Shown: positions 10,857-25,547 of the stretch, in pieces
How positions within the stretch are numbered: the stretch's first letter is position 1
How the letters are laid out: every line of letters starts with the position of its first letter
Origin: Lentisphaerota bacterium
GTDB taxonomy: Bacteria > Verrucomicrobiota > Kiritimatiellia > Kiritimatiellales > Pontiellaceae
Direction: 5' to 3'
NCBI GenBank assembly: GCA_012729265.1
Contig: JAAYDL010000114.1
Coordinates: 1-51,778 of the forward strand
DNA: 51,778 bases
Made by a program: the position numbers and the translations under genes
Notes under the pieces: model-generated
Database searches by the model: none
What the model saw: only the letters and a program-made list of their open reading frames with translations
Told to the model about the DNA's origin: nothing

Positions 10857-12626
10857 ATGCTGAAGCGCTTACACATTGCTTTTCTTGCGGGATTTTTTGC
10901 ATGGGTCTTGGCGGTGTATGCCGAGAGCGAACCGCAGGAAGGCGTTGCATATTCGGTCGAATTTCGGGGCGACCGCTCGGCCAGCATTCGTAAACTCATC
11001 AAAAAGCAGGCCTCCGTCTGCCGCCTTGAGGATCAGCCGCCGATTACCTTGGGCCAACTGCGTTACCGGATCGAACAGGATAAGCCGTTGATTGAATCTG
11101 TGCTGGAGAGCGAAGGCTACTACGACGCAACGGTTGATTTGACGATGGATGAGAAGACGCAGCCGACGCAAGTCATCATCGATCTGAAGCTGGGGCCGGC
11201 ATACGAGTATCGATTGGTTGAGATTGCATTCCCCGGCTCGACGGATAAGGAGCTGGCCAAGATTCGTCCTCGTCTGCGCAAAAAGCAGCGGGTTCAGTCG
11301 GCGGCGGTCTTTGAGGAACAGGAGCGCATTCTGGATGAAGTGCGGCGGCGGGGATATCCCTTTCCATCGCTGGCGAAGCGTACGGTGAATGTGAACCGTG
11401 CGGGAAAAAAGGTGGATCTGCGGCTCGAATTTGATCCGGGCGTGAAGGCCTATTTCGGATCGGTCGAAGTGGATGGGCTGGAAACGCTGGAGGATTCGTT
11501 TGTGCGGAGGCAACTGCCGTGGGAGCCGGGCGATCGCTATGACCGCGTGCTGGTGGATCGACTGGAGCGCCGGTTGTTAAACAGCGGAGTCTTCAGTCGC
11601 GTGAATGCCGAGCCCAGCGAGGCGGGCGCGGGCACAAATTCAATTCCGATTGCGGTGGAGCTGCGCGAGCGCGTTAAGCGCACGATTCAGCTGGGGGCCG
11701 GGTTTTCAGACATTGGCCCGGAAGTAAAAGTGTTTTGGGAGCACCGCAGCTTGTTTGGTTCGGGCGAGCGTTTTGAAACATCGGTGCTGTGGAATCCGAT
11801 CACGGTGGGCGGCGAGGCCAAGCTGACGCGCTCGGGCTTTCTGGATGCCAACCAATATCTCGTGCTGGAGGCCGAGGCGCTGCGCGAATATCCCGACGCG
11901 TATGATTCGCGCAAGCTGAGGGTGAGCGCGATGGTTCAGCGCGAGTTTAATCCGGAACTCTGGGGCGGAATCGGGATCGGCTATCGTCATTTGCTCGATG
12001 AACAACTCGGTTCGAGGGAACGCTACGGACAGCTCCTTTTCCCGTTGGAGATCAAATATGATTCGCGCGACGATCTACTCAATCCCGTGCGCGGGATACA
12101 ACTGTTCGGTCGGGCGGAGTTTTATGAGGATACGCTGGGCGCGGATTCCTATTTAAAGAGCCGGATGGAGGCGCTCCACTATGCCATGCTCTCGGAACGA
12201 TTCCGCCTTTCGAGCGCACTGCGGCTGTGTGTGGGGAGCATCGACGGAACCTCCCTCGGCGGCATTCCGGCGGGCGACCGCTTCTATGCGGGCGGCGGCG
12301 GATCGGTGCGTGGATATGAATATCAGTCGATCGGCAGCCGGATGAACGGGCGCGCGGCTGGCGGCGATCGCCTGTTGGAGTTTTCGGCGGAGCTGCGTTT
12401 GCAGCCGGGGCGCAAGCTGGGCTATGCGATTTTTCTCGACGGTGGCACGGCGTATAACAGTCAGCTGAGCGGGTTTGATCAGTCACTGCGCTACGGCGCA
12501 GGCGGCGGTTTGCGCTGGTTTACGCCGATCGGTCCGCTGCGCGTGGATCTGGCTTATCCGCTTAATCCCGCCGATGAGCACGATGAACGGCTGCAGTTTT
12601 ATATCAGTTTGGGGCAGGCATTTTAA
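10857..12626 (+). CDS. tamA: Omp85-family outer-membrane assembly protein, TamA-like
   Basis: 589 residues. Residues 1-23 are a signal peptide. Residues about 30-270 form POTRA-type repeats (alternating helix and strand, with phrases such as LIESVLESEGYYDATV). The rest is a 16-strand type beta barrel, with the VRGYEY signature of the Omp85 loop 6 and a terminal phenylalanine, the usual barrel sorting signal. TamA inserts autotransporters and other barrels in the outer membrane together with TamB. The direct coupling to a TamB gene (stop and start share one base) supports TamA over BamA, and the length is that of TamA. The Shine-Dalgarno is weak. Confidence 0.9.
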   Translation: MLKRLHIAFLAGFFAWVLAVYAESEPQEGVAYSVEFRGDRSASIRKLIKKQASVCRLEDQPPITLGQLRYRIEQDKPLIESVLESEGYYDATVDLTMDEKTQPTQVIIDLKLGPAYEYRLVEIAFPGSTDKELAKIRPRLRKKQRVQSAAVFEEQERILDEVRRRGYPFPSLAKRTVNVNRAGKKVDLRLEFDPGVKAYFGSVEVDGLETLEDSFVRRQLPWEPGDRYDRVLVDRLERRLLNSGVFSRVNAEPSEAGAGTNSIPIAVELRERVKRTIQLGAGFSDIGPEVKVFWEHRSLFGSGERFETSVLWNPITVGGEAKLTRSGFLDANQYLVLEAEALREYPDAYDSRKLRVSAMVQREFNPELWGGIGIGYRHLLDEQLGSRERYGQLLFPLEIKYDSRDDLLNPVRGIQLFGRAEFYEDTLGADSYLKSRMEALHYAMLSERFRLSSALRLCVGSIDGTSLGGIPAGDRFYAGGGGSVRGYEYQSIGSRMNGRAAGGDRLLEFSAELRLQPGRKLGYAIFLDGGTAYNSQLSGFDQSLRYGAGGGLRWFTPIGPLRVDLAYPLNPADEHDERLQFYISLGQAF

Positions 12627-15349
12627 TGAAGAAATGTATACGCATCTTAATGAGGTTGCTCCTTACGCTCGTGCTGCTGTTGGTGCTGGCGCTGGCCTTT
12701 GTTCAAAGTCCGCCGGGGAAAAAGTGGATTGCTGCCGAGCTGTCAAAGCGCCTGAGTGATCCGGGTCGAATGGAAGTACGGATCGGAACCCTTCGGGGTT
12801 GGATTCCAATGCAGGTGAAAATTGATCACATCGAAGTGCTGGATCAGGAGGGTGTGTGGATTACGTCGGAAAATCTGCGTGCTCGACTCTCGCTGAGCGA
12901 TCTGCTGAATGGACGATTGCATGTGCCGCAGTTGATCGTCAGCGATGTGGATATGGTCCGCCGACCGCTGTCGAACGCGAGAAAACAGGAGCGCAGCGGG
13001 TTGGAGCGCTTGTTCCTCCATGTCGAATCGGTGGAGGTGGAGCAGATTCAATTGGCGGAAGAAGTGGCCGGAGTTCCGCTGAGTTATGCCGTCTATTCCG
13101 GTCAGCTTTCTCTGGTTTCAGGTCTCCTTTCCGGCGAAGTGGAACTCGGCGGAGATGCGGAGGGGCTGTTTTCTCTTGAGGCTTCGCTCCTGAATCCCGA
13201 CACGCAGGCGATCTCAGTCTTCACCGATTCCTTTGAGCTGCATCACCCGACGTATGGATTGGAGGGCATTGCGGCCTCCGGGGCCTTGCGCGTGGATGCG
13301 CTGGGGGTAAATGCCCTGTTGGATGCCCGCTTCGTGCGGGACGGCTTCGCGGAGACGCTCTCGACGCGTCTGGGCTATGTGGATCAAGTTTTACGGGCCG
13401 ACGGGTTGCGCTGGAGTCGAGCCGGCTTGGAGCTGACGGGCGAGGCGGAATTAGTATTTTCGAGTGCGGGAATTGGTCTTCAGTTTGACGGCGCCTTCGA
13501 CGAGAATTCAACCAGTCATTATGAGGGCTCCGGACGCGGGCGCGTTGTGCTTGGCAAGGAGGGCTGGTCGGCGGAGGTCGATGCCCTGAGCGTGACGGCC
13601 TGGAGCAATGTGTTGCTGACGGCTTCCGGGCGTTTAGAGGTGAGCTCTGTCAAGAAAAGCTGGTCCGCAGAGGTGGATGCGCTGAATGTGAGCGCGTGGA
13701 GTAATGTGGTTTTAGCGGCGTCCGGCAGCGTCGATGCTGAGCGGATTGATTTGGGCGGAACGGTAGGCGTCGAAGAACTCGGACGCTTGCCCTTTCCGGG
13801 GATGGCGGAATTATGTGGTGCGGCGCGCGGTGTATTTTCGTTGAGCGGTCCGCTCAATAAGCCGGAGGGGTCGGCGGAGATTTGGGTTTCTGGATTGGGC
13901 GGTGTGGATAATGTGTTGGCAACGTGGGAGCGGGTAAATTTCAAAGTCGATGCCTCACTCTCCAATGGGACGTTGTCCGCTTCAACGGCGCTGGATGATC
14001 TCTATGGAGCAAGCATGGCCGCAGAGGTTTCTGTTCCCCTTCGGCTTTCGCTTCTTCCGTTTAAATTTTCGCTGGAGAACCAGCGGCTCTCCGGAGCATT
14101 GCGTGCTGCGCTTGATCTGGCGGAGCTGAATCAATTTAATGCGTTGGCCAATCAGCGGGTTTCCGGACGACTGACCGCTGATCTCTATATGCGAGAAGGC
14201 GCGCCGTTTGGTTCTATTCAGATCAATGACGGGGCGTATGAACATTATGGCCGGGGCATCCTGTTTCACGGGTTTAACGCACAGATGGATGCGTCTCCCG
14301 AAGGCTTGGTGCTTCGTGAGGCTTCGGCCACGGATGGCCATAAGGGCGAGCTCTTTCTCTCTGGTGGGCTGAGTCGCTCTGGGTGGAATGTTGCGCTGGA
14401 GCTAAAGCAGGCTAAAATTTTACGGCTCCCCGAGGCCTCGGCGACGATTTCGGGGCGTATGAAGCTGAGTGGTAAAGCGATGCATCCAGAGTTGACGGGC
14501 GAGCTGGTGCTTGATCGCGCTGACGTGCTCCCGGATCATATTGCGCCGGCAAAGCCGCAGCTGCTTACCAATTTTGATGCGTCGCAGCCCAATCTCGAAC
14601 CGCAGTCGCAGAAGCGCCCGTTTGTCGTTCCCTTCGGCGTGGATCTGCGCGTGAAAATGCCCGGTCAGGTATTTGTGAATGCCGACCTGATCGACTCCGT
14701 CTGGAGCGGAGATCTGCGGATCAGAAGCTCGGAAAAGGGCTGGATCATTGAAGGGAAAATGGAGCCGGAAAACGGGTTCTTTGATTTTGTGGGGCGGCCC
14801 TTTCGTTTTAAAGGCGGGGCAATTGAGTTCGACGGCTCGGTGCCGCCGGTGCCGGTCTTTAATGAGCTGACCGCCGAATATTCGCGCAGCGATGTCTCCG
14901 CGCGTCTGATTCTTAACGGCACGCTCAGTGAGCCGCAGTATCGCTTGGAATCAACGCCCGCGATGCCCGAGGATGAAATCCTTGCGCACGTGCTCTATAA
15001 CCGCTCTTCCGGCTCTATATCGCCTTGGCAGGCGGTGCAGATTGCACAGGCGCTTCGTCAGCTTTCCGGCGGGTTGAGTGGGCCCGGTTTTATTTATCAG
15101 CTTCGGCGCACGATCGGAATCGATACTTTTGAGGTGCGCGAGGGAGGGGATTCTTTGGGCGAATCCGCCGTGGTGGCCGGGAAATATCTTGCCCCCGGTC
15201 TCTATCTTGAAGTTAGTGGACAGCTCAAAGGAAACACTGAAACCGGCGTGCGGGTGGAATACCAGATCAGCAGACATTTCTCCCTCGAAACCAGCGCTGG
15301 CCCGTCGCTTCGCCCGGGCATCATGCTCAACTGGAAACTGGACTATTAA
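12626..15349 (+). CDS. tamB: TamB-like translocation/assembly protein (DUF490)
   Basis: 907 residues, starting in a TAATG overlap with tamA. An N-terminal membrane anchor (about 8-27) is followed by a long beta-helical AsmA/TamB-like region. The final ~330 residues match the conserved TamB domain (for example PEDEILAHVLYNRSSG and the terminal SLRPGIMLNWKLDY), which docks with TamA. TamB spans the periplasm as a hydrophobic-grooved beta structure involved in outer-membrane protein or lipid delivery. The protein is shorter than E. coli TamB (about 1260). A segment is duplicated in tandem: residues 314-339 and 346-371 share WSAEVDAL, AWSNV and ASG at a 32-residue period. Confidence 0.9.
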   Translation: MKKCIRILMRLLLTLVLLLVLALAFVQSPPGKKWIAAELSKRLSDPGRMEVRIGTLRGWIPMQVKIDHIEVLDQEGVWITSENLRARLSLSDLLNGRLHVPQLIVSDVDMVRRPLSNARKQERSGLERLFLHVESVEVEQIQLAEEVAGVPLSYAVYSGQLSLVSGLLSGEVELGGDAEGLFSLEASLLNPDTQAISVFTDSFELHHPTYGLEGIAASGALRVDALGVNALLDARFVRDGFAETLSTRLGYVDQVLRADGLRWSRAGLELTGEAELVFSSAGIGLQFDGAFDENSTSHYEGSGRGRVVLGKEGWSAEVDALSVTAWSNVLLTASGRLEVSSVKKSWSAEVDALNVSAWSNVVLAASGSVDAERIDLGGTVGVEELGRLPFPGMAELCGAARGVFSLSGPLNKPEGSAEIWVSGLGGVDNVLATWERVNFKVDASLSNGTLSASTALDDLYGASMAAEVSVPLRLSLLPFKFSLENQRLSGALRAALDLAELNQFNALANQRVSGRLTADLYMREGAPFGSIQINDGAYEHYGRGILFHGFNAQMDASPEGLVLREASATDGHKGELFLSGGLSRSGWNVALELKQAKILRLPEASATISGRMKLSGKAMHPELTGELVLDRADVLPDHIAPAKPQLLTNFDASQPNLEPQSQKRPFVVPFGVDLRVKMPGQVFVNADLIDSVWSGDLRIRSSEKGWIIEGKMEPENGFFDFVGRPFRFKGGAIEFDGSVPPVPVFNELTAEYSRSDVSARLILNGTLSEPQYRLESTPAMPEDEILAHVLYNRSSGSISPWQAVQIAQALRQLSGGLSGPGFIYQLRRTIGIDTFEVREGGDSLGESAVVAGKYLAPGLYLEVSGQLKGNTETGVRVEYQISRHFSLETSAGPSLRPGIMLNWKLDY
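13562..13735 (+). repeat. In-frame tandem duplication within tamB
   Basis: Two consecutive 96-nt units encode WSAEVDALSVTAWSNV and WSAEVDALNVSAWSNV at residues 314 and 346, with about 18 of 26 residues identical. The DNA copies have diverged at third positions, so the duplication is not recent. Confidence 0.8.
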
Positions 15350-16930: not shown

Positions 16931-17278
16931 ATGAAGATTGAGAGTTTGATGACGGATGATGCGGTGTTGGCCGAGCTGGGCGGGCGTCTGACGCAGCGGC
17001 GGATAGAGTCGGGCCTGTCGCAGGCCGAGCTTGCCCATCGGGCGGGGGTGTCGAAGCGGACGGTCGAGCGGGTCGAGGCGGGTGCGCCGGCGCAAACGGC
17101 AACGCTGGTAAGGATGCTGAGGGCGCTGGATCTGCTCGACCGACTGGAAGCATTGGTGCCGGAGGCGGGACCGCGGCCGATGGATCTGCTGAAGCTCAAG
17201 GGCGAAGAGCGGAAGCGGGCGCCACGAAAAAAGGCGGATGTATCGGGGCAACCTTGGCAGTGGGGGGATGAGTCGTGA
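16931..17278 (+). CDS. hipB: HipB-like Xre-family antitoxin
   Basis: 115 residues. The Xre/Cro helix-turn-helix covers about 17-70, with LSQAELAHRAGVSKRTVERVE (about 29-49, broken by nothing) as the recognition unit. A short basic tail (about 92-102, ERKRAPRKKAD) follows. In type II hipBA systems this protein binds HipA and represses the operon. The stop overlaps the hipA start in GTGA, so the two are translationally coupled. The base composition is strongly GC-rich, unlike the AT-rich DNA just to the left, pointing to separate arrival. Confidence 0.88.
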   Translation: MKIESLMTDDAVLAELGGRLTQRRIESGLSQAELAHRAGVSKRTVERVEAGAPAQTATLVRMLRALDLLDRLEALVPEAGPRPMDLLKLKGEERKRAPRKKADVSGQPWQWGDES

Positions 17279-18582
17279 GCACGGCGGCAGAGGTCAGGCT
17301 GTGGGGGCGGACGATCGGTGCGGTGGCGCTGGCGGACGGCGAGGCCGTGGCGACGTTTGAGTACGATCCGGCATTCGCGCAAAGCGGGATCGAGGTGTCG
17401 CCGCTGACGATGCCGCTCTCTACGCGGCTGTATTCCTTTCCGGAGCTGAATCCCAAGACCTTTCGCGGGCTGCCGGGCATGCTGGCGGATTCGCTGCCGG
17501 ACCGCTTCGGCAATGCGCTGATCGATGCGTGGCTGGTTCGCGAGGGGCGTGCGGAAGGGTCGTTCAACGCGGTCGAGCGGCTCTCCTATACGGGAGCGCG
17601 GGGAATGGGAGCGCTGGAATATGCGCCTGCCATCGGGCCGCGCGCGCGCGCTGCGTCGCGGGTCGAGGTCGACCGGCTGGTGGAGCTGGCGTCGGAGGTG
17701 CTGACCCATCGGAGCAACCTGCGCGGCTGGCTGGACGAGGAGGGGCGCGTCGCGGCCTTGCGGGACATGCTGCGGATCGGGACTTCCGCCGGTGGCGCGC
17801 GGGCAAAGGCGGTGATTGCCTGGAATCCGCAAACCAACGAGGTGCGCTCGGGGCAGGTGAAAGCCGGCGAAGGGTTTGAATATTGGCTGATGAAGTTCGA
17901 CGGGGTGGGCGGCAACAAGGACAAGGAGCTGGAAGACCCGAAGGGATATGGCGCGATCGAGTATGCCTATTCCCGGATGGCCGTGGATGCGGGGATCGCC
18001 ATGAGCCCCTGCCGCTTGTTCGAGGAGGGCGGCCGACGCCATTTCATGACCCGCCGTTTCGACCGGCAGGACGGCGGCGGAAAACTGCACATGCAATCGC
18101 TGTGCGGATTGGCCCATTATGATTTCAACCAGGCCGGGGCGTTCAGTTACGAGCAGGCGCTGCAGGTGGTCCGGAAACTGGGGCTTTCAATGACCGCCGT
18201 GGAGGAGCTGTTCAGGCGCATGGTGTTCAATATGGTCGGGCGCAACCAGGACGACCATGTAAAAAACATTGCGTTCCTGATGGACCGGTCCGGCGAGTGG
18301 TCGCTGTCGCCCGCATTCGATGTGACCTACAGCTACCAACCGACCGGCCAGTGGACATCGTCGCATCAGATGACGCTGAACGGGAAGCGCGACGGGTTTG
18401 TGCTCGACGATTTCAAGGCGTGCTCAAAGGCGGCCTCCATGAAGCGGGGGCGCGCCGAAGCGATCATCGGCGAGGTGCGCGAGGTGGTTGGCCGATGGCG
18501 CGATTATGCGGATGAAGCCGGTGTCCTGCCGGAGCATCGGGACCGGATCCAACAGACGCTGCGGCTCGCGCCGTTTGCATGA
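17275..18582 (+). CDS. hipA: HipA-family Ser/Thr kinase toxin
   Basis: 435 residues, full family length, starting at GTG 17275 inside the hipB stop. The N-terminal HipA domain (about 5-105) contains the usual LPGMLADSLPDRFGN block. The kinase domain has the nucleotide/activation loop GTSAGGARAKA (169-179), the catalytic RNQDDHVKN (323-331) and the metal-binding D349 in LSPAFD. All key residues seem present, so the kinase is probably active. E. coli HipA phosphorylates glutamyl-tRNA synthetase and triggers growth arrest; the target here is unknown. The gene converges on the exonuclease gene with only five bases between stops. Confidence 0.92.
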   Translation: MSTAAEVRLWGRTIGAVALADGEAVATFEYDPAFAQSGIEVSPLTMPLSTRLYSFPELNPKTFRGLPGMLADSLPDRFGNALIDAWLVREGRAEGSFNAVERLSYTGARGMGALEYAPAIGPRARAASRVEVDRLVELASEVLTHRSNLRGWLDEEGRVAALRDMLRIGTSAGGARAKAVIAWNPQTNEVRSGQVKAGEGFEYWLMKFDGVGGNKDKELEDPKGYGAIEYAYSRMAVDAGIAMSPCRLFEEGGRRHFMTRRFDRQDGGGKLHMQSLCGLAHYDFNQAGAFSYEQALQVVRKLGLSMTAVEELFRRMVFNMVGRNQDDHVKNIAFLMDRSGEWSLSPAFDVTYSYQPTGQWTSSHQMTLNGKRDGFVLDDFKACSKAASMKRGRAEAIIGEVREVVGRWRDYADEAGVLPEHRDRIQQTLRLAPFA

Positions 18583-21214: not shown

Positions 21215-21368
21215 CGTCTGGTCCTCTATTGGGTTCGGATGCCTCTGTTCGTCAGTTCGAAAAATACGCAGGGCGCATCAACAAGCAAACTAAAAAGCGT
21301 TTGTCTTCCTTCTTTCCGTCGGAGGCATAGTTTTGTTTAATGGAACGTTCATAACCAATGGAGAAAAA

Positions 21369-22259
21369 ATGGGCAGGAGATTTAGCAAGGTGGCGGTTTT
21401 GAAGGGCGGCGTTTCTTCGGAGCGCGAGGTATCGTTGAAATCGGGTGCAGCCGTTGCGCAGGGGTTGCGCGAGGGCGGTTATGAGGTGGTGGAGGTGGAG
21501 GTGGATTCGCGGAGTCTGAAGCTTCCGTCCGGCGTTGAGGCGGTCTTTGTAGCGCTTCACGGACAGTTTGGAGAGGATGGGGAAGTTCAGACGTTGCTGG
21601 CGGAAGCGGGCGTACCTTTTACAGGTTCCGGTGCAGCATCGAGCCGCCTCTCTTTTGATAAGGTTTTAACGCGGGTCTGTCTGGCGGGAAACGGGGTTCC
21701 TGTTGCAAAAGGTGAGGTACTGAAGGTCGCTGCAGCACGAACGCTGCCGTTGCCGGTGGTGGTGAAGCCGCCGCGCGAGGGATCAAGTGTGGGTTGCTAT
21801 CTCGTTTTTGAGGAGTCGGAGTGGGAGGCTTCGTTTAAAAAGGCAGTACAGTTTTCGGGCGATGCGCTGGTGGAGGAATATATTCCCGGGCGAGAGCTGA
21901 CGGTCGGCATTGTGGGCGATCAGGTGCTGCCGGTGGTGGAGATTAAACCTGCGAAAAAATGGTATGATTTTGCAGCCAAATATGTGAACGGCAATACAGA
22001 ATATACGGTTCCCGCAAAGCTTGAGCCCGAAACGGCGGAGCAGCTCCAGGCGATTGCGCTGAAGACGTTTACATCTTTGGGCGCGGAAGGTTTTGGGCGC
22101 GTCGATTTTCGACTATCGCCGGAGGGCAACCCCTATGTACTGGAACTGAATGCCATTCCGGGCTTTACCGCAACCAGCCTGCTGCCCAAGGCGGCGCAGG
22201 CGGCGGGAATCGGTTTTTCAGCGCTTTGTTGTCGAATCATGGAACAGGCTCATCTATAG
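21369..22259 (+). CDS. ddl: D-alanine--D-alanine ligase
   Basis: The frame opens at 21333, but ATG 21369 has GGAG five bases upstream and gives 296 residues, typical for Ddl. ATP-grasp features are visible: VLKGGVSSEREVSLKSG at the N-terminus, VVKPPREGSSVG for nucleotide binding, EEYIPGRELTVGI, and GFGRVDFRL followed by LELNAIPGFTATSL with metal-binding Glu and Asn. The enzyme joins two D-alanines for peptidoglycan. It begins a plus-strand run ddl-ftsQ-ftsA-ftsZ, the end of a classical dcw cluster. Upstream dcw genes (murC, murB) are not beside it, so the cluster is split. Confidence 0.95.
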   Translation: MGRRFSKVAVLKGGVSSEREVSLKSGAAVAQGLREGGYEVVEVEVDSRSLKLPSGVEAVFVALHGQFGEDGEVQTLLAEAGVPFTGSGAASSRLSFDKVLTRVCLAGNGVPVAKGEVLKVAAARTLPLPVVVKPPREGSSVGCYLVFEESEWEASFKKAVQFSGDALVEEYIPGRELTVGIVGDQVLPVVEIKPAKKWYDFAAKYVNGNTEYTVPAKLEPETAEQLQAIALKTFTSLGAEGFGRVDFRLSPEGNPYVLELNAIPGFTATSLLPKAAQAAGIGFSALCCRIMEQAHL

Positions 22260-22286
22260 TGAAGGCTTGTTTCAGGGGTGCAGAGA

Positions 22287-23150
22287 ATGGCTGTTAGAAC
22301 GTCGAATACGAATCGGGGAAATATCCAATATGTGAAGGACCGGAAACGCTCAGAGCGGCGTGGGCCGGTTGTTGCGCGCCGTGTTGCTGCCATCCTTGTT
22401 TTGCTGCTGTTGGCCGTATTTCTCTGTGGTGGCATCGTTTGGTCTTTTTTATGGGTCGAGCGAGCGCTCTTTTCTGAAAATCCGACGTTTAGGATTCGCA
22501 CCATTGAGGTTTCCATTTCAGGGGATAAATTCAGCGCGGCGGATATTTGCGAAATGGGCAATATACGCAAGGGGATGAATCTATTTGCGCTGCGTTTTAA
22601 GGATCTTCGTAAAAAATTCCGCGATAATCCTGATATTGTCTCCATTGAGTTTACAAGGGAGCTTCCGGATACGTTGCGGATTCAGGTGCGCGAACGCGTT
22701 CCGGTTGCGCGGGTGGATTCTGATCATCCTGATTCTGAAGTCCGATGTCTCATCGATGCAGAAGGGTTTTTGTTGACATCAGAAGGTCGGCGAGGTGTGG
22801 GACACCTTAGCTATATCATAGGGCTCTCCGACAAGTTAGTTCCCGGGAAGCAGCTAAATGATGAAAAGATAAAAGTGGCATTAGGCATCATCAAGCTGTG
22901 CAACAGTAATCCTCAATGGGATTATTATATTGAGTTACTGAATATTGATGTTTCGCCTTATGATTATGTCATTTTGAACCTAAGGGAAAACAACATCGCA
23001 AAAATCCCGTTGCATTCGCTGGAGTCAAAACTTTCACACCTAGCATCGATAATACAGACGGCCATCACACAGGGAAATCCTCCGGTTACAGAGCAAATTG
23101 ATCTGACACCAAACGGAGACGGGGTATTCAGACGGAGACGCGATATTTAG
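22287..23150 (+). CDS. ftsQ: Cell division protein FtsQ
   Basis: ATG 22287 is chosen because a G-rich stretch (22275-22278) lies eight bases before it; GTG 22278 is an alternative. The protein has 287 residues: a basic cytoplasmic tail, one membrane helix (about 31-57), then a POTRA domain (about 66-140) with the typical VxxIEFTRELPDTLRIQVRER ending, and a beta domain. FtsQ links early and late divisome proteins in the periplasm. Identity is supported by position between ddl and ftsA. Overall sequence conservation is low, as usual for this family. Confidence 0.88.
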   Translation: MAVRTSNTNRGNIQYVKDRKRSERRGPVVARRVAAILVLLLLAVFLCGGIVWSFLWVERALFSENPTFRIRTIEVSISGDKFSAADICEMGNIRKGMNLFALRFKDLRKKFRDNPDIVSIEFTRELPDTLRIQVRERVPVARVDSDHPDSEVRCLIDAEGFLLTSEGRRGVGHLSYIIGLSDKLVPGKQLNDEKIKVALGIIKLCNSNPQWDYYIELLNIDVSPYDYVILNLRENNIAKIPLHSLESKLSHLASIIQTAITQGNPPVTEQIDLTPNGDGVFRRRRDI

Positions 23151-23182: not shown

Positions 23183-24409
23183 ATGTCACTTGAAGCAACA
23201 GCAGTTTTAGAAATAGGAACGAGCACCATCCGCGTTTTGGTGGGTGAGTTGCGCGATGACGGTGTCGTTACCGTGGTCGGCATCGGCGAGGCGGAGTCGA
23301 AGGGCATTCGTAAGGGCGAAATTGTGGACCGCGATGATGCGATTGACTGCGTGCGTGCCGCGCTGAAGGCCGCAGAGGAAAATTGGCGGAAGACCATTCA
23401 GTCCGTCATCCTGATTACTTCCGGCGGACAGGCGGAAGCTAAAAAGAGCACCGGCGTCCATCGTGTGGTCGATCCCGGCGATAACCGTCTGGCGGAAATT
23501 AGCGAAGCGGATGTGGCGGAAGTGGTCGAAACGGCTCGTAAGGTTCTGCTTCCCGAAAACCGTATTCGGCTTCATACGCTTCAACAGTTTTTCCAAGTGG
23601 ATGATTCGCTCAATGTGACGAATCCGGTGGGGATGGCCTGTGAAGAGCTGCGGGTGGATGTGCTGACGATTCACGGAAAGCGAAGCGCGGTGGATAACTT
23701 GCGTAAAATAGTCGATGATGCGCCGATAGCTTGTGAGGACGCGGTTTTCAGTGGATTGTGCGCTGCCCGCGCGGTGGTGTCCGATGAACAGAAAAAAGCG
23801 GGCGTACTGGTCATTGATATCGGTGCGGGTACAACCGATTTTGTGCTCTATTATGACGGCTTTGTTATGGCCGCCGGATCCATTGGAGTAGGCGGCGAAC
23901 ATGTGACGAACGATATTTCCTCCGGGCTTCAGATTCCTATGGCGCAGGCGGAATTGCTGAAGCAGGAGAAGGGCAGTGCGATTACCAACCTGATGGAACG
24001 AGATCATAATATTTCGGTGCCGGCGTCATCGCAGGGTTTCGGCGCGAAAATAGTGCGAGCCATTACACTTAACACCATCATAAATGCACGTATGGACGAA
24101 CTCTTTGGACTCATTAAAGAAAGTATCGATCGCAGCTGTCCGAATGTCCCGCTGGGTGCAGGGGTACTCTTGACCGGCGGCGGTTCTTTCCTCAGCGGAA
24201 CGCGCGATCTGGGGCAAAAGGTGTTTAATGCACCGTGCTCACAGGGGAAACCGTTCGATGTGCAGGGATTGTCCACCGCGAAAGAGGGTTCGCTCTACGC
24301 CTGCCACATCGGCGCCATTCGCTACGCTTCGGATATGAAAACGGTGGAATACAAGCCCTCTTTGGGGCGACGCTTGCTGAAGGTGCTCTGGGGAGGTGGC
24401 CGTGACTGA
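23183..24409 (+). CDS. ftsA: Cell division protein FtsA
   Basis: 408 residues. Actin-fold motifs are clear: phosphate 1 loop VLEIGTSTIRVLVGEL (about 8-23), phosphate 2 loop VLVIDIGAGTTDFVLYYDG (about 207-225) and adenosine loop LLTGGGSFLSG (about 328-338). A 1C (SHS2) domain lies between. The C-terminus (KTVEYKPSLGRRLLKVLWGGGRD) is a basic amphipathic helix for membrane binding. FtsA tethers FtsZ polymers to the membrane by binding the FtsZ C-terminal peptide, which the next gene retains. No strong ribosome binding site is seen. The end overlaps ftsZ by eight bases. Confidence 0.95.
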   Translation: MSLEATAVLEIGTSTIRVLVGELRDDGVVTVVGIGEAESKGIRKGEIVDRDDAIDCVRAALKAAEENWRKTIQSVILITSGGQAEAKKSTGVHRVVDPGDNRLAEISEADVAEVVETARKVLLPENRIRLHTLQQFFQVDDSLNVTNPVGMACEELRVDVLTIHGKRSAVDNLRKIVDDAPIACEDAVFSGLCAARAVVSDEQKKAGVLVIDIGAGTTDFVLYYDGFVMAAGSIGVGGEHVTNDISSGLQIPMAQAELLKQEKGSAITNLMERDHNISVPASSQGFGAKIVRAITLNTIINARMDELFGLIKESIDRSCPNVPLGAGVLLTGGGSFLSGTRDLGQKVFNAPCSQGKPFDVQGLSTAKEGSLYACHIGAIRYASDMKTVEYKPSLGRRLLKVLWGGGRD

Positions 24410-25547
24410 TCCATCTGAAAAACGATTTTCTACTCTGCATGTTCCCCGCACATTGGTAATGGGGGTGGGATCGAGCGGAAGCCTTGCGGTTTCCGGCCTT
24501 TCCGGCCTTCCGGAAGAGGTGATGGTTGCCGCAGTGGATACCGATAGCAAGCTGCTTGCCGGGTTGGAAATAGATCATTTTATTTGCGTTGGCGAAAGCA
24601 TAACGCACGGCCTCAGTGCGGGCGGTGCGGTTGAGCTGGGGCGTCAGTTGCTGGAAAAAGATTCATCGGGTATCCGCCGTAAACTGCGGGATGTAGATTT
24701 AGTGATTCTCGTGGGCGGTCTCGGCGGCGGAACAGCTTCCGGAGCGTTGCCTGTGGTCACTCGTATTGCCCGGGAGGCCGGTTGCCTGATTCTGGCCGTC
24801 GTCTCCATGCCGTTCGATTTTGAAGGAAAAATGAAGAAATCGGCGGCGGAAGATTCGCTGAAACGGGTTCGAACTCACGCCGATGCGGTCATTCGTATCT
24901 CCAACGAACGACTGTTGAGCCGCGCAGATTCCGATATATCGGCGGAGGATGCATTTTCCAGAAGCCATCAGGTTGTTCGCGACGGCGTGGGTATGCTCTG
25001 CCGTCTGATTTCCAGCGTCGGAGTGTGCAGTCTGGATTTTGCCTGTATTCATACCATGCTTAAAAACTGCGATGGGTTCTGCAATCTCGCGTTAGGGCGC
25101 GCCGCCGGCCCAACTCGGGCCGAGGTCGTGGCGGAATCGTTACTGACTCATCCGCTGCTGGGCAATGTGGAGCCGTGGGCCAGGGCTCAAGGGGTTATTG
25201 TCGGAATAACGGGCGGCCCGAGTCTCACTTTGCGCGAGATTGAAACGGTCATGAAAAAGATACAGGAGAAACTCCCTGCGGAGGTCTGGTTTAATTTTGG
25301 GGTTCTGGTTGATCCGGATTGCGGCGATGATCTTTCGGCCATGGTTTTGCTTGCGGAGCAGTGGAAAGAGCCGTTGGTGGATAGTGCTGGTCGGCAGATC
25401 GCGGTCCGCGGGAGAGGCGGGCAGGCGGAATTTGCGCTCGAAACGGTCGGAAAAGGACGCTTTGCCCATGTGAATCCGACCATTTACAACAACCAGGATC
25501 TGGATGTCCCTACCTATATCCGACGCGAAATTAAACTGCCGCGATAA
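24402..25547 (+). CDS. ftsZ: Highly divergent FtsZ
   Basis: 381 residues from GTG 24402, five bases after GGGAGG; GTG 24396 is an alternative. The tubulin-like GTPase fold is recognisable: VDTD (46-49), SITHGLSAGG (66-75), GGLGGGTASG (105-114, instead of the usual GGGTGTG) and GITGGPSLTLREI (268-280). The C-terminal peptide QDLDVPTYIRR (365-375) closely matches the canonical FtsZ tail that binds FtsA. Key nucleotide and catalytic sites have changed. The T7 loop reads SLDFACIHTM, so the first Asp (D212) is present, but the position of the second catalytic Asp (D212 in E. coli) is C215 and the usual Asn is Ser. In the guanine-binding helix the usual AND is SHQ. It sits directly after ftsA with no second ftsZ in the window, so it is probably the working division protein of a divergent lineage. 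Confidence 0.88.
   Translation: MTDPSEKRFSTLHVPRTLVMGVGSSGSLAVSGLSGLPEEVMVAAVDTDSKLLAGLEIDHFICVGESITHGLSAGGAVELGRQLLEKDSSGIRRKLRDVDLVILVGGLGGGTASGALPVVTRIAREAGCLILAVVSMPFDFEGKMKKSAAEDSLKRVRTHADAVIRISNERLLSRADSDISAEDAFSRSHQVVRDGVGMLCRLISSVGVCSLDFACIHTMLKNCDGFCNLALGRAAGPTRAEVVAESLLTHPLLGNVEPWARAQGVIVGITGGPSLTLREIETVMKKIQEKLPAEVWFNFGVLVDPDCGDDLSAMVLLAEQWKEPLVDSAGRQIAVRGRGGQAEFALETVGKGRFAHVNPTIYNNQDLDVPTYIRREIKLPR

Follow-up and report, generated by a model that had tools for sequence, protein, structure and literature searches.

A single-copy FtsZ lacking the canonical T7 catalytic motif in a Lentisphaerota bacterium, and repeated loss of T7-loop residues across its phylum

The window analysed here, a 51,778-nucleotide stretch of DNA from a Lentisphaerota bacterium, contains an open reading frame (24402–25547, forward strand, 381 amino acids) whose product resembles the division GTPase FtsZ and lacks one of the two T7-loop acids, which raises the question whether this is a genuine FtsZ and, if so, how a cell might divide with it. 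The initial annotation suggested an FtsZ that polymerises and binds FtsA but hydrolyses GTP slowly or differently. The gene, present in a single copy, starts with GTG (an alternative GTG is located at 24396), and its start overlaps the stop of ftsA (24409). As annotated, it is preceded by ftsA (23183–24409, forward; TIGR01174, 292 bits, above the 176-bit cutoff) and ftsQ (22278–23150, forward; POTRA_1, 8.4e-10), and also by ddl, encoding D-alanine–D-alanine ligase (21333–22259, forward); the order ddl-ftsQ-ftsA-ftsZ is kept among relatives. A Pfam search identifies the tubulin GTPase and FtsZ_C domains (PF00091, 1.6e-28; PF12327, 2.5e-14), and a PDB search retrieves FtsZ chains only, with E-values from 1.9e-50. 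The score against TIGR00065, 202 bits, falls under the 295-bit equivalog cutoff, a limit on score that is no criterion of homology. The AlphaFold2 model, built on 65 sequences, has a pLDDT of 86.9, and a Foldseek search started with this model gives a best FtsZ match with an E-value of 3.7e-35 and target TM-scores as high as 0.94. An identity with TubZ, PhuZ or BtubA/B is rejected because the best matches are all FtsZ and both the FtsZ_C domain and the C-terminal peptide are present. By homology, fold and genomic context, the product of 24402–25547 is an FtsZ, one without the canonical catalytic motif. Elsewhere on the same strand, the window encodes a HipA-type kinase (Couple_hipA and HipA_C; 17275–18582), a few kb upstream of the dcw genes, and an outer-membrane assembly pair of adjacent Omp85 and TamB genes (10857–15349).

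Residue correspondences were taken from an alignment to E. coli FtsZ, in which D212 of the window protein matches E. coli D209 and C215 matches E. coli D212. The T7 loop (25014–25046, forward) carries SLDFAC where E. coli has NVDFAD: N207 is replaced by S210 and D212 by C215 (codon 25044–25046), and D209 is retained as D212, so that the NxDxxD motif has lost its Asn and second Asp and kept the first Asp. These replacements and their positions were correctly given in the initial annotation, and the alignment equally bears out three other features that it described. The guanine contacts A185-N186-D187 of H7 are replaced by S188-H189-Q190 (24963–24971, forward); the G-box in the T4 loop reads GGGTASG (24723–24743, forward), in agreement with the GGGTGTG-like tubulin signature; and the C-terminal FtsA-binding peptide QDLDVPTYIRR (25494–25526, forward) is near-canonical, with D368, P370 and R374 invariant in 65 sequences. 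Beyond that annotation, N43 is replaced by Asp and Q47 by Lys in the T2 loop, D46-T-D48-S-K50 (24537–24551, forward), in which D48 corresponds to E. coli D45 and both D46 and D48 are invariant in the family. A lysine, K145 (24834–24836, forward), occupies the position of E. coli R142, the counterpart of the arginine-finger-like R143 of S. aureus (PMC8936486).

The H8-S7 turn contains a C223-D-G-F-C227 motif (25068–25082, forward) with a one-residue insertion relative to E. coli; C223, D224, G225 and C227 are invariant in the family, and the two cysteines and the aspartate are retained in the sister family as well. The motif is part of a cysteine-rich stretch (25026–25082) comprising C209, C215, C223 and C227 together with H217, of which C223 and C227 are family-invariant, and a metal-binding or redox role of this stretch is possible. 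The invariant D224 was considered as a replacement acid and rejected, since it would lie at the far end of helix H8 and is unlikely to reach the nucleotide. An acid placed one step away, which could have filled the same site, is absent from the T7 loop throughout the family, where position 211 is Ala or Ser.

The extent of the change becomes apparent when the protein is compared with the S. aureus filament crystal structures, in which the interface consists of D46, Q48, R143, N208, D210, D213 and N44 (PMC8936486), that is, D45, Q47, R142, N207, D209, D212 and N43 in E. coli numbers. In these structures, N44 holds a Mg-bound water, D210 swings to place the catalytic water, and D213, which only provides environment, is water-bridged to R143 (PMC8936486). 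The window FtsZ retains two of the seven residues, D45 and D209, the others being D43, K47, K142, S207 and C212. On average, 2.1 of the seven are retained in the family and 4.1 each in the sister family, the rest of the class and the other classes, compared with 6.87 in a control phylum (the one to which an unrelated FtsZ contig, named as Deltaproteobacteria, belongs). Family members have Cys or Ser at 212, mostly Ile or Val at 142 (Lys in the window), Gly or Ser at 207 and Lys or Arg at 47; R142 is lost also in most of the order. The loss of D212 is one part of a wider interface change.

An artefact, namely an assembly error, a misalignment or a canonical second ftsZ missed in an incomplete genome, would dispose of the whole question, and a genome that is 94% complete in 385 contigs leaves some room for it. 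However, the T7 loop alignment is unambiguous in the family, and the aligned C215 is not a shift artefact because the loop is anchored by D209 and F210, with Ala at position 211. Neither is C215 a sequencing error, since separate genomes of the family have Cys (17/24) or Ser (7/24) at this position, and the same kind of change is found in separate assemblies that include complete single-contig genomes of the phylum. The annotation found no second ftsZ in the window, and the search of the genome (94.3% complete) extends this result, with no second tubulin-superfamily gene in either; PF00091 does not recognise two weak extra matches in genome G000 (E-values 0.02 and 0.25) as tubulins. In each of 24 well-assembled genomes from the phylum, ftsZ is present as the sole strong tubulin-superfamily gene, and no second FtsZ, canonical or otherwise, is found among them. 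An artefact is accordingly very improbable.

Extra matches were confined to three of these 24 genomes: G012, where ftsZ is split and its second piece matches separately, and G020 and G029, each with a weak plasmid-type tubulin. The split gene (G012:C1:425837-426948, L170) consists of two overlapping frames in a one-contig genome and reflects either a long-read indel or a real frameshift. The second tubulin-superfamily genes of G020 (L219:721-2147) and G029 (L220:3548-4987) encode 366 amino acids and are located directly behind a gene of about 110 codons that may encode a small DNA-binding protein, a layout resembling TubR/TubZ plasmid partition. Their products match PF00091 (3e-8 and 8e-7), RepX in the PDB (2e-5) and PhuZ among PHROGs (2.5e-4); no relative was found among viral contigs, and no such gene is present in the window's genome.

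The altered T7 loop is not a peculiarity of the window gene. In an alignment of 159 FtsZ sequences gathered from the order, the class and the phylum, position 212 is non-acidic in all 24 sequences of the family, in 10 of the 11 from the sister family, in 41/93 from the rest of the class and in 18/31 from other classes; counted by family, it is non-acidic in all sampled members of 24 of the 57 families and in at least one member of 30. Several complete genomes of the phylum have the T7 loop LDFATL or LDFAGL. Other lineages of the phylum have lost the acid at position 209, which is Asp in 24/24 sequences of the window's family. When the T7 columns are excluded from tree building, the state of position 212 changes at least 17 times and that of position 209 at least 14 times. 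By comparison, both acids are retained in 30/30 FtsZ of the control phylum, although these are the best-scoring sequences and thus lean towards the canonical form. The TIGR00065 cutoff is passed by FtsZ from only 19/194 genomes of the window's phylum versus 58/59 of the control phylum; for FtsA, whose own cutoff is more lenient, 183 of the same 194 genomes pass. T7 residues have been lost repeatedly across the phylum.

Some lineages show further variants of the site. Families f29, f31 and f10 (e.g., L105, L107 and L124) have Arg or His at position 212 and usually retain the first acid, which gives a beta-tubulin-like T7 loop; E211 is present in some families, f29 among them. Family f35 (L128, L166) has no acidic residue across E. 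coli positions 205–213. In the sister family (f2, L033-L043), the G-box Thr at position 108 is replaced, in addition to the loss of D212, by Phe (GGGFGTG) in 10/11 sequences and by Leu in the remaining one.

Changes on this scale could signify decay, i.e., a degenerate FtsZ that forms no GTP-dependent polymers and acts only as a scaffold or is being lost, as proposed for Nitrosopumilus FtsZ. The N. maritimus protein has no T7 motif and does not polymerise (PMC3684127), Planctomycetes and Chlamydiae lack FtsZ altogether, and the small share of genomes that pass the TIGR00065 cutoff points in the same direction. So does the rate of evolution. Within the family, FtsZ evolves faster than its neighbour FtsA (mean identity 63% versus 71%; in only 2% of pairs does FtsZ have the higher identity). 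In the control phylum, by comparison, the two proteins show about equal conservation (FtsZ higher in 50% of pairs); a report on Methylacidiphilum mentions the same contrast, without data (PMC2474590). Such a protein would not be expected, however, to keep E138 in 159/159 sequences and D209 in 24/24 sequences of the family, together with many other invariant sites, an intact G-box and an intact C-terminal peptide. Nor is an alternative division tubulin found, and ftsZ is essential in Verrucomicrobium spinosum (Henriques 2025, PMC12283558). Furthermore, both T7 acids are lost in fewer cases than independent loss would give, six being observed against a mean of 18 in conditional simulations, only one of 128 of which is as low; this test is approximate (one tree and a simple model), and across all simulations, unconditioned on the number of losses, the probability is 0.07. 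In four of the six cases of double loss, position 211 is Glu. Read with this caution, the test suggests selection for at least one T7 acid. Since the T7 loop almost never lacks both acids and the C223-D-G-x-C227 motif is family-invariant, the protein looks constrained rather than decaying, and degeneration appears improbable.

The sequence changes, their recurrence across the phylum, the single copy, the synteny, the predicted fold and the sequence constraint are best compatible with a functional division FtsZ. We infer that it binds GTP, polymerises and docks FtsA, and that its gamma-phosphate site is rebuilt around D209, probably with much slower hydrolysis, a reading that, taken as a whole, we place just on the probable side. 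Under this reading, the window protein would be the sole FtsZ of the cell and its working Z-ring component, tethered by FtsA via the conserved C-terminal peptide. In head-to-tail filaments, the T7 loop of one subunit would close the GTP site of the next, contributing a single acid (E. coli D209) to a rebuilt inter-subunit GTPase site in which the partner pocket retains D45. With D209 as the only T7 acid, and with other residues in place of the D212-R142 water bridge and the N207/Q47 potassium site, GTP hydrolysis is expected to be clearly slower, and the filaments more stable and slower-turning, than in E. coli. The annotation's proposal thus survives as the best-supported reading, with two corrections: the pattern is phylum-wide, and besides D212 four more of the seven interface residues are changed, while the one with the direct catalytic role in the S. 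aureus structures, D210 (E. coli D209), is kept.

Work on model proteins bears on this expectation in both directions. The GTPase activity of E. coli D212G, in a membrane-targeted fusion, is almost tenfold lower and the vortices are static (PMC7320174); earlier work, as cited there, puts this activity at less than 1% of wild type. The S. aureus mutants Q48A and R143K assemble, with roughly sixfold lower GTPase activity and stabilised polymers (PMC8936486), and expression of FtsZ(D212A) with FtsA in wild-type E. coli yields extra septa that are completed (PMC4383033). In beta-tubulin, where the equivalent T7 position is K254, the GTP of alpha-tubulin stays unhydrolysed (PMC13394414). On the other hand, S. 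aureus FtsZ no longer assembles in vitro with any one of the changes R143Q, N208L, D210N and D213N (PMC8936486), and E. coli D212G needs genomic suppressors in order to complement (PMC5405962). Because single changes at four of these sites abolish assembly in S. aureus, extrapolation from single mutants is unsafe, and the rebuilding must have involved the site as a whole. A literature search found no filament structure or biochemistry for the altered FtsZ of this phylum.

Many simultaneous substitutions could also restore a normal rate. In such a compensated enzyme, D209 alone would position the water, N43D of the partner subunit would contribute a carboxylate beside the Mg2+, and the T7-loop potassium would be replaced by Lys or Arg at 47. 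The division of labour in S. aureus, where D210 places the water and D213 only provides environment (PMC8936486), fits this possibility. D43 is present in 22/22 sequences of the family and 11/11 of the sister family and, more broadly, accompanies a lost 212 acid in 73/91 cases versus a kept one in 25/66, which makes N43D in the partner T2 loop a possible compensating acid; Q47 tends to accompany N207 (36/50), and Lys, Arg or other residues accompany its loss, so that Lys or Arg at 47 is a candidate for the potassium substitute. However, none of the phylogeny-aware coupling tests (212 against 209, 43 and 142; 207 against 47) is significant, with too few independent pairs, and the replacement of T108 in the sister family looks like weakened catalysis. 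Beta-tubulin retains the first T7 Asp and still does not support hydrolysis. Full compensation is therefore a possibility that we regard as rather doubtful.

The loss of a T7 catalytic acid in a working division FtsZ does not appear in the literature searched, which covered few subscription papers, so that its novelty is weakly supported. Accelerated evolution of FtsZ in Verrucomicrobia, by contrast, is known, and its divergence there has been on record since 2007 (Yee 2007, PMC1845146). The T7 aspartates, N208, R143 and Q48 have been called conserved across species and key to assembly or catalysis (PMC8936486), and Z-ring condensation in B. subtilis is considered to require FtsZ treadmilling (PMC8079713). 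Repeated loss of such residues in a single-copy division gene amounts to a natural experiment on whether division requires fast GTP hydrolysis by FtsZ; cells of this phylum may divide with an FtsZ whose GTP hydrolysis is slow or chemically different. More speculatively, much of the phylum might divide with a naturally GTPase-crippled FtsZ whose GTP-assembled filaments hardly treadmill, septal wall synthesis being organised without fast turnover and the T7 acid lost many times under such a regime; as a general account, we consider this conceivable and somewhat unlikely.

Compared with canonical FtsZ (E. coli, S. aureus, M. tuberculosis), the window protein shares the fold, the domain order, the G-box, E138, N165, D45, D209, the FtsA-binding peptide, the dcw synteny and the single copy. 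It differs in D212, N207, Q47, R142, N43 and the ND of the guanine motif, in the insertion and CDGxC motif after H8, and in scoring below the TIGR00065 cutoff. The FtsZ of V. spinosum, probably from the same phylum, is likewise very divergent and encoded in a dcw cluster, and has a long C-terminal extension that the window FtsZ lacks; the accessible portions of the two papers (PMC1845146, PMC12283558) list divergent positions and do not discuss the T7 aspartates. In N. maritimus FtsZ, the T7 motif is not conserved either, but in that protein the GTP-binding motif is gone as well, and Cdv proteins are present beside it (PMC3684127), whereas the window FtsZ has an intact G-box and no other division tubulin was found in its genome. 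The E. coli D212G and D212A mutants are non-acidic at the same position; D212G, however, depends on suppressors, and the state in the window is natural, fixed and accompanied by several companion changes. Finally, the replacement of the second T7 acid appears to follow the residue pattern of beta-tubulin (K254), and some families of the phylum have Arg or His at this position. Beta-tubulin, however, acts on its alpha-tubulin partner within a heterodimer, whereas the window FtsZ must use one site for all interfaces.
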